A stretch of DNA of 48,934 nt from NCBI RefSeq assembly GCF_025961575.1, contig NZ_JAOQNX010000036.1, positions 1-48,934 of the forward strand, in the 5' to 3' direction. This document shows, piece after piece, positions 9,593 to 36,543 of this stretch. Source of the DNA: Rhodoblastus acidophilus (GTDB taxonomy: Bacteria; Pseudomonadota; Alphaproteobacteria; Rhizobiales; Beijerinckiaceae). Position 1 is the stretch's first letter. Each line of letters begins with the position of its first letter. A program made the position numbers and the translations under genes. The notes below the pieces were generated by a model, which saw only the letters and a program-made list of their open reading frames with translations, was not told the origin of the DNA and did no database searches.

Positions 9593-9680
9593 CTGTAGCG
9601 CGGGCCTCGCCTGTGCTGCATGCCCTCCTTGGGCGTTTCCTCCCTAGACTTGGGCCGCTGTTCGCAGCGGCCTTTTTTTT
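9593..9680 (+). ncRNA. alpha-r8/suhB(MmgR)-family trans-acting sRNA
   Basis: A free-standing transcript of about 85-90 bases between the 95-residue protein gene and the convergent haloacid dehalogenase gene. It contains TTTCCTCCCT (9636-9645), which I recall as the ultraconserved single-stranded element of the alphaproteobacterial alpha-r8 (suhB, MmgR) sRNAs. It ends in a strong intrinsic terminator. The CCTCC core is complementary to Shine-Dalgarno sequences, so the family is expected to repress translation of several mRNAs, probably with Hfq. In Sinorhizobium MmgR limits polyhydroxybutyrate accumulation; a PHB-depolymerase-like gene exists elsewhere in this window but no link is shown. Family assignment is from memory of the motif. 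Confidence 0.75.
9653..9680 (+). terminator. Intrinsic terminator of the sRNA
   Basis: Perfect 8-bp stem GGCCGCTG / CAGCGGCC with a TTCG tetraloop (9661-9664), followed by eight T residues. Confidence 0.92.
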
Positions 9681-9687
9681 GCTCGCG

Positions 9688-31180: not shown

Positions 31181-31221
31181 CGTCATGCCCGGATTAGCGC
31201 CGGGCAAGCCCGGCCATGACG
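31181..31221. repeat. Family A short copy A3 (41 bp)
   Basis: CGTCATGCCCGGATTAGCGC then CGGGCAAGCCCGGCCATGACG: the two outer edges CGTCATG and CATGACG of family A joined around a collapsed centre. It looks like a deletion form or a single hairpin unit. It lies between the HD hydrolase gene and nadQ. Confidence 0.7.
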
Positions 31222-33590: not shown

Positions 33591-33700
33591 CGTCATGCCC
33601 GGGCTTGTCCCGGGCATCCACGCCGGGCCGCGAGAGAAAGTTCTGCGGGAGTTCGCGTTGGGGCGCCGCGTGGATGGCCGGGACAAGCCCGGCCATGACG
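33591..33700. repeat. Family A REPIN-like element, copy A4 (110 bp)
   Basis: Left unit CGTCATGCCCGGGCTTGTCC then CGGGCATCCACGCCGGGCCG; right unit GCGTGGATGGCCGGGACAAG then CCCGGCCATGACG. Its centre (AGTTCTGCGGGAGTTCGCG) corresponds to the reverse complement of the centre of A1. It lies between convergent genes. Confidence 0.9.
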
Positions 33701-36006: not shown

Positions 36007-36053
36007 GGAATCTGTAGCGCACCACTTTCGGCGTCTACCCGTACCCTTTCCAC

Positions 36054-36451
36054 CGTCATGACCGGGCTTGTCCCGGTCATCCACGCCGTCCAACATGGAG
36101 GGATGAAGGGCGGGTGGGTGTACATTGTCACAAACAAGCGGAACGGCGTGCTCTACACTGGCGTGACGTCCGACCTTGCGCGCCGCATCCATCAGCACCG
36201 CACAGGCGCGTGTGACGGCTTCACCAAGCACTATGGGCTGACCCGCCTCGTCTATTACGAGCGCCACGACGACATAATCGCCGCCATCCAGCGTGAAAAG
36301 AACATCAAGCATTGGCCGCGCGCGTGGAAAGCGCGGCTGATCCTGGAATTTAACGCGTCTTGGCGAGACCTGTACGAGGATCTCGCCTGAAGCGCCGCGC
36401 AACGCGTCTCACGGCCCGGCGTGGATGACCGGGACAAGCCCGGTCATGACG
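36054..36451. mobile_element. 398-bp inverted-repeat element carrying a GIY-YIG nuclease gene (expanded family A)
   Basis: Perfect 35-bp inverted repeats at 36054-36088 and 36417-36451. Each end is itself a hairpin (ATGACCGGG-CTTGT-CCCGGTCAT) with outer edge CGTCATGA, the same edge as the ~110-bp family A copies elsewhere in the window. The interior is a single gene for a small GIY-YIG nuclease. No target-site duplication is obvious. The element lies between ychF and the RHH gene. Confidence 0.75.
36103..36390 (+). CDS. GIY-YIG nuclease domain protein (COG2827-like)
   Basis: A 95-residue single-domain endonuclease. The GIY half is GGWVYIVTNKRNG (Val in place of Gly-Ile), the YIG half VLYTGVT, followed by the catalytic Arg27 (LARRIHQHR), the helix DDIIAAIQREKNIKHWPRAW and a late Glu (E82) with WRDLYEDL. 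It belongs to the short YhbQ/COG2827 type, which has no DNA-recognition domain. The start MKGGWVYI is chosen; the frame continues upstream into the left repeat. It is the sole gene between perfect inverted repeats and may act on them. Confidence 0.88.
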   Translation: MKGGWVYIVTNKRNGVLYTGVTSDLARRIHQHRTGACDGFTKHYGLTRLVYYERHDDIIAAIQREKNIKHWPRAWKARLILEFNASWRDLYEDLA

Positions 36452-36543
36452 GCTGAAGCAGCGGAAATCATCTCCCCCGCTCTTGCGCACCCCGACACGT
36501 GCGCCCATCTACCATCCACACGGATGGCGCACGGATGGAAAAT

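Follow-up and report, generated by a model that had tools for sequence, protein, structure and literature searches.

Why should a lone GIY-YIG nuclease gene lie between two exact, inverted copies of a repeat that is scattered in high copy, often as dimers, through the window (the whole 48,934-nucleotide stretch of DNA analysed here) and the Rhodoblastus genome it belongs to? An earlier note on this DNA had pointed out the arrangement at the ychF locus and had read the gene as an 'autonomous' relative of shorter, gene-less repeats nearby. Here we follow up this proposal, asking what the gene and the repeats are, how regularly they occur together elsewhere and whether they behave as one unit.

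The nuclease gene and its flanking repeats

The likely start of the gene is at 36103; an alternative in-frame ATG at 36058 falls inside the left repeat. As judged by profile matching, a single Pfam domain (PF01541, E 8.7e-16) spans the whole 95-residue product, which we assign on this sequence basis to the GIY-YIG nuclease superfamily. Residues Y7, Y18, R28, H32, E65 and N84 are 98–100% conserved among 132 sequences, with Y7, Y18, R28 and E65, which we take to be the catalytic positions of GIY-YIG nucleases, reaching 99–100%. The structure model is a bare GIY-YIG fold (pLDDT 93), and neither Pfam nor the model reveals a second domain or a DNA-binding module; PF01541 is the sole domain detected in the protein, and no transposase was found in the REP-gene-REP unit. 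The best solved-structure match is to UPF0213 (1zg2; sequence E 1.3e-5, Foldseek E 6.2e-4), followed by Slx1-Slx4 (7cq2; Foldseek E 0.02). The protein is under purifying selection: dN is 0.040 and dS 0.641 in comparison with the copy of the comparison genome R. acidophilus (90 codons; that copy ends early), and dN is 0.118 and dS 1.415 in comparison with a second copy in the same genome.

The flanking repeats had been given as perfect over 35 bp; they are indeed perfect, the arms being exact over 36 bp and reaching 41 bp at 95% identity. Each arm is laid out as CGTC + ATGACCGGG + CTTGT + CCCGGTCAT + CCA + CGCCG, and is predicted to fold, as a single strand, into a hairpin (z -3.4 for the left and -3.9 for the right copy). 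CGTC REPs (families CGTC-1 to -4) were described by Di Nocera et al. 2013 (PMC3733652), whose excerpted text gives a tag, an 8–9 bp stem starting with AT, a loop of 4–5 bases and a CCA tail, mostly in alphaproteobacteria. Judged by their CGTC tag, AT-starting 9-bp stem, 5-base loop and CCA tail, the 36-bp arms that flank the nuclease gene are CGTC-type REPs, a connection that is absent from the earlier note, as is that to the Ssn family discussed below. The ends CGTCATG...CATGACG are common to the unit, to the three dimers of about 110 bp and to the 41-bp palindrome of the window (Table 1), as had been proposed.

Table 1. Features of the window, and loci of two groups of homologues treated below
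Feature	Position or loci	Strand	Description
Left CGTC-type REP	36053..36088	+	CGTC tag outward, 9-bp stem ATGACCGGG, loop CTTGT, CCA tail, then CGCCG
Lone GIY-YIG nuclease gene, 95 aa	36103..36390, stop included	+	ORF with PF01541 domain
Right CGTC-type REP	36417..36452	-	Exact inverted copy of left REP
110-bp REP dimer	33591..33700		Gene-less, proposed non-autonomous relative; CGTCATG...CATGACG ends
41-bp hybrid palindrome	31181..31221		Outer part of left REP fused to outer part of right REP
111-bp REP dimer	26528..26638		Gene-less; CGTCATG...CATGACG ends
110-bp REP dimer	15664..15773		Gene-less; CGTCATG...CATGACG ends
GSR/GSQ sub-group	L026, L033, L042, L050, L054, L055, L059, L062, L180
Second clade, between inverted CCTCATCCTGAGG...CTCGAAGGACG palindromes	L067, L068/L247, L069, L072, L248, L249, L250, L253

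A 110-bp dimer is predicted to fold into one long hairpin (z -9.7). The 110-bp spacer bears a weak likeness to the 3' flank of one of the two gene copies of this genome, the score being reached by 7/500 and 206/500 shuffles for the two flanks. Genome-wide, CGTCATGNCCGG occurs at 118 sites in 4.91 Mb and the reversed pattern at none, and the abundance of the repeat is therefore not a matter of chance. Rfam has no entry at the repeats of the window; elsewhere in it, at 9615–9687, Rfam matches the small RNA mmgR/suhB.

Recurrence across homologues

Nuclease and repeats are paired generally, and the pairing is real. In a set of 60 genomes (including the one studied here) 38 contain a match to the protein at E 1e-3, and this clade is present in 33; among 398 Pseudomonadota genomes, 101 have a match at E 1e-18, a single genome carrying up to 6 copies. 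A scan of contigs returned at least 579 relatives, of which the best 80 were used; some are recorded as Betaproteobacteria, Nitrospirae, Planctomycetota or Leptolyngbya, and several of these records are metagenome bins.

We scored loci by the best inverted repeat between their 250-bp flanks, and used 285-bp windows slid across the same loci as control. The earlier note had raised the question of whether homologues sit between inverted repeats more often than chance, and they do: scores of at least 14 were reached by 46/60 homologue loci as compared to 47/1838 control windows in the first sample, by 65/79 as compared to 11/1184 in the second and by 23/29 as compared to 5/433 in the third, and scores of at least 20 by 32/60 (control 4/1838), 52/79 (2/1184) and 18/29 (0/433), respectively. 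Loci without a scoring inverted repeat number 14/60, 14/79 and 6/29, and the R. tumorigenes copy also has no flanking inverted repeat. The three samples overlap slightly (L131–L133 repeat L005–L007; L279 and L281 resemble L168 and L154). L180 was omitted from the 79-locus sample for its short flank, and the 29 loci are the best-scoring matches of the phylum search, our own genome excluded. The 60-locus sample is one side of a split made by tblastn at E 1e-10, with L071, which has no match, omitted; the other group of this split, in which 5/10 loci have repeats, led to the second clade described below.

Among plasmids, 8 of the 9 loci inspected (of 37 records; some share a site) score at least 14. 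By comparison, only 3/226 neighbouring ORFs of at least 100 residues, taken from blocks of our genome and of R. acidophilus, reach this score, the window gene being among the three. A stricter hairpin finder, applied to 137 loci, placed a repeat unit within 130 bp on both sides of the gene at 71 loci, on one side at 24 and on neither at 42; the tag points outward at 51 of the 71 loci with units on both sides, and the median unit start and end are -48 and +44. At L009, REP dimers are arrayed in tandem upstream of the homologue, with a period of about 112 bp.

The GIY-YIG clade is thus widespread, patchy and often multi-copy, with members that usually lie between CGTC-type repeats. The possibility that the gene is fixed at ychF across genera is rejected by homologue mapping, which places it at many other loci. 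Genomes with the clade have 11.4 REP-pattern hits per Mb as compared to 7.2 in those without (p 0.006; Spearman 0.35), a modest correlation that includes our own genome and is not corrected for background. Four of the 27 clade-less genomes (G057, G035, G016 and G024) have at least 60 REP-pattern hits, and so the repeats persist without the gene. The REP-rich G057 has REP pairs about 180 and 300 bp apart, and its only PF01541 match lies in a 674-aa frame. Since the gene-plus-repeat pairing recurs in many bacteria, this nuclease probably supplies the partner that a very common bacterial repeat family had been lacking.

Repeat type follows protein sequence

The stems of the repeats vary between organisms, with ends that remain close to YGTCAT...ATCCA. 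Protein distance and distance of the upstream repeat unit are correlated across 66 loci (Mantel r 0.46, to which shared ancestry contributes), a value reached by 0/1000 permutations, the maximum among these being 0.17. In one sub-group the helix after the catalytic Glu carries K.GS(R/Q) in place of the usual KxWxR. All 9/9 of these GSR/GSQ loci have a CATTGCGAG...GAAGCAATCC-type repeat no more than 300 bp away, on both sides in 7 cases, as compared to 3/128 of the others (Fisher p 6e-12); motif and repeat pattern were chosen post hoc, after most loci had been inspected. The locus L180, from a Nitrospiraceae metagenome-assembled genome, was previously uninspected and fits the association with CATTGCGAG. 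The type of repeat thus follows the sequence of the protein.

Furthermore, a second, related clade of lone GIY-YIG proteins (VYILRC.DGSYYVGS-like) scores at least 14 at 8/15 loci and at least 20 at 7/15, with 5 and 0 of 293 control windows reaching these values; the 15 include one UvrC-length frame and one weak match (L255 and L256). All eight scoring loci have, as judged by eye, a different palindrome with CCTCATCCTGAGG...CTCGAAGGACG-type ends. Because the second clade carries a different repeat, the pairing of a lone GIY-YIG nuclease with a palindrome has occurred with at least two repeat types.

Boundaries of the unit and related sites without the gene

PF01541 has three matches in the genome, one of which lies within a 662-aa frame, presumably UvrC judging from its size. 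Outside long frames, the only match besides the window gene has the same type of flanks: on contig C24, between trmFO-like and cstA-like genes (names judged from sequence), a copy encoding a protein 79% identical to that of the window is likewise enclosed by inverted CGTC REPs. DNA homology of the two copies extends over -55..+68 and -54..+69 around the gene and ends about 4–5 bases beyond the REP edges; the terminal inverted repeats of this pair bound the duplicated unit, as in a classical insertion sequence. In the relative G029 two copies differ at 6 of 95 residues, and their homology begins within the left REP, interrupted in one copy, and continues to where the right-hand repeats end, while in older paralogue pairs it is mainly confined to the gene. 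In G037 the last 30 or so codons of the gene are left between intact REPs, and this remnant reads as an internally deleted derivative of a full unit. Paralogue boundaries and deleted relative lend support to the earlier note's picture of an 'autonomous' element with non-autonomous derivatives.

The earlier note had also proposed to compare empty and filled junctions. Gene-less junctions exist, both at ychF and at a Sphingobium site, and none is clean enough to establish a target-site duplication, flanks at the aligned junctions having diverged too far. The ychF site holds a full unit in our genome, in G001 (the congener whose DNA matches the ychF region best) and in G005, and a single palindrome in G008. 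No REP was found there in six other Rhodoblastus; downstream neighbours differ in these REP-free species, and the site is therefore comparable on one side only. G010 gave no match to the ychF region. In G001 (L122) the right REP is followed by about 150 extra bases with palindromic TTCCGAAGGAT/GCGGAAATCC motifs, absent from the window, before the RHH gene is reached.

The Sphingobium site is the plasmid interval that separates fnrL from a response-regulator gene; it contains the full unit in 7 records and is gene-less in 4, not counting four one-sided matches (H61–H64). Four of the seven full copies were read, one of which (TYG73) carries a frameshift. Two of the gene-less sites have hybrid palindromes made of the outer parts of both REPs, one has another palindromic insert and one has little. 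In both FastTree trees (midpoint-rooted) full copies cluster, hybrids occur in the neighbouring lineage, and lineages further out have neither. This pattern fits loss and gain equally: a full unit may have been lost, or a palindrome already in place may have been invaded.

We also searched for empty sites by setting 153.7 kb of R. acidophilus against 133.8 kb of our own DNA, drawn from contig C24 and the window; five junctions could be aligned. Two of our dimers, among them that at 33591..33700, are missing at the matching places in R. acidophilus and one R. acidophilus REP is missing here, at joints made unreadable by diverged flanks; the sole clear case is a full dimer in R. acidophilus where the window has the 41-bp hybrid. 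Where our genome has the C24 copy, a degenerate REP is visible by eye in R. acidophilus, and the hairpin finder reports no REP; the finder detects none in seven other relatives, where the upstream side differs. No empty site was among the matches listed for the CIAT894 and R. tumorigenes flanks (30 of 145 records in the case of R. tumorigenes). Taken together, sequence comparison strongly suggests that the REP-gene-REP unit is mobile.

A possible mechanism and its alternatives

We think it probable that nuclease and repeat are a cognate pair forming a mobile unit, and that the stretch of about 400 bp downstream of ychF would then be a REP-nuclease-REP unit, a CGTC counterpart of the RAYT 'REPtron' of GTAG REPs. 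The nuclease would recognise the REP, probably in the form of a single-stranded hairpin such as may occur in the lagging-strand template, and would cut at or near its tag, although for the cutting step itself the nuclease is a plausible rather than a probable agent. Cuts at paired REPs could release or expose the DNA that they bound, which host repair and replication would copy or move. GIY-YIG enzymes hydrolyse DNA and would not join strands themselves, hence the moving is left to the host. The 110-bp dimers may be short passengers kept by the same enzyme, and the 41-bp hybrid what remains once the inner part is lost. Against this reading, no cleavage, excision or transposition has been observed, hybrid palindromes could come from replication slippage between stem arms, no target-site duplication was established, some homologues have no flanking repeats, repeats persist in clade-less genomes, and the likeness of the 110-bp spacer to a gene flank is weak.

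If the pairing were coincidental, REPs would simply be so common between genes that any short gene is often flanked by them. REPs are intergenic and abundant (118 sites here; PMC3733652, excerpted text), but this explanation is very improbable: homologue-versus-control counts led us to reject it, and the neighbour-ORF comparison, the spacing and orientation of the units, the co-variation of protein and repeat and the second clade with its second repeat speak against it as well. A non-mobile host enzyme, that is, a site-specific single-strand nuclease which polices incoming or exposed single-stranded DNA through its cognate repeats and whose gene lies among them for regulatory or historical reasons, is unlikely. 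It would agree with purifying selection on the protein and with the gonococcal homologue flanked by dRS3-like repeats, Neisseria Ssn being, reportedly, a single-strand nuclease linked to natural transformation; it fits poorly with a patchy, multi-copy distribution at many loci, with related sites that are gene-less and with a gene remnant between REPs.

Homing into repeats overlaps with the reading that we prefer, being likewise a mobile nuclease-repeat pair, and the two are compatible. Here the nuclease would cut REP palindromes or dimers that hold no gene, which would then be converted through the arms of about 36 bp as a gene-bearing copy serves as repair template, and the REPs would spread by other means. 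GIY-YIG is a homing-endonuclease fold, and residues 4–34 match a PHROG homing endonuclease (E 2.8e-5); neighbouring lineages hold single or hybrid palindromes at the sites, as a pre-existing target would look, and paralogue homology stops at the REP edges. Homing is nonetheless doubtful, given a nuclease with no second domain, arms that are short for conversion and relatives (six Rhodoblastus and two Sphingobium, with differing flanks in most) that have no such REP at the site.

Returning to the cognate pair as a mobile unit, we tentatively put forward a wider reading, which may or may not hold as a whole: CGTC REPs would be the non-autonomous members of a class of minimal mobile elements in which a lone GIY-YIG nuclease takes the place of a transposase, with at least two clades each having its own palindrome (GTCAT...ATCCA and CCTCATCCTGAGG...CTCGAAGGACG), a post-Glu motif that in the first clade predicts the hairpin, convergence with RAYTs and GTAG REPs, and hybrids as excision footprints. 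CGTC REPs are widespread alphaproteobacterial intergenic repeats that the excerpted text of PMC3733652 left without an enzyme in 2013, and assigning them a particular nuclease clade opens their origin and spread to direct tests. It also provides numerous natural pairs of nuclease and hairpin whose specificities can be read, and with them a candidate motif for specificity.

Comparison with known systems

Seg-type enzymes are free-standing GIY-YIG homing endonucleases. The window gene shares with them its catalytic fold and a selfish-looking distribution, and differs in that its product has no visible DNA-binding module and that repeats flank the gene. It is like UPF0213 and Slx1 in that these are its best solved-structure matches; Slx1 works with Slx4 in repair.

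The Ssn enzymes (site-specific single-stranded nucleases) of Neisseria, the subject of a 2025 study in Nature Communications, are said to be GIY-YIG nucleases that cut single-stranded DNA at a repeated sequence (NTS repeats), and thousands of homologues reportedly have cognate repeated sequences of their own. A frame of N. gonorrhoeae, which we take to be Ssn, shares 55% identity with the window protein across 94% of the query length, and at this locus (L225) dRS3-like repeats directly follow the stop codon. Since this homologue sits among dRS3-like repeats and dRS3 is CGTC-1 according to the excerpted text of PMC3733652, the window enzyme is probably an Ssn-family enzyme. Like Ssn, it is a single-domain GIY-YIG protein with a gonococcal homologue among dRS3-like repeats and, as in the Ssn family, a cognate repeated sequence is present, at 118 sites and of a type that tracks the protein.

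Among the papers listed in a search that covered part of the journals, none joins GIY-YIG nucleases to REPs, and COG2827 and UPF0213 are not named in the excerpted text of the 2006 GIY-YIG survey (PMC1564403). The present analysis joins two literatures that were not found together, those of CGTC REPs and of GIY-YIG single-strand nucleases. What it adds is the identification of the cognate repeats as CGTC REPs across lineages, the delimited REP-gene-REP unit, a deleted derivative, hybrid palindromes, a motif for one repeat type and a second clade-repeat pair.

The repeats of the window are like the CGTC REPs of PMC3733652 in tag, stem, loop and tail, in their occurrence as dimers and in their alphaproteobacterial host. 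According to the excerpted text of that paper CGTC REPs "apparently lack a dedicated transposase", no transposase gene having been found, whereas those of the window flank a GIY-YIG nuclease gene. The RAYT/REPtron system, in which, per the same excerpt, an IS200-like tyrosine transposase goes with GTAG REPs, resembles ours: there too a short gene lies between inverted REPs, non-coding REP dimers are dispersed and the distribution is patchy; the window enzyme, however, is of the GIY-YIG type and not a tyrosine (HUH) transposase, and its tag is CGTC, not GTAG.
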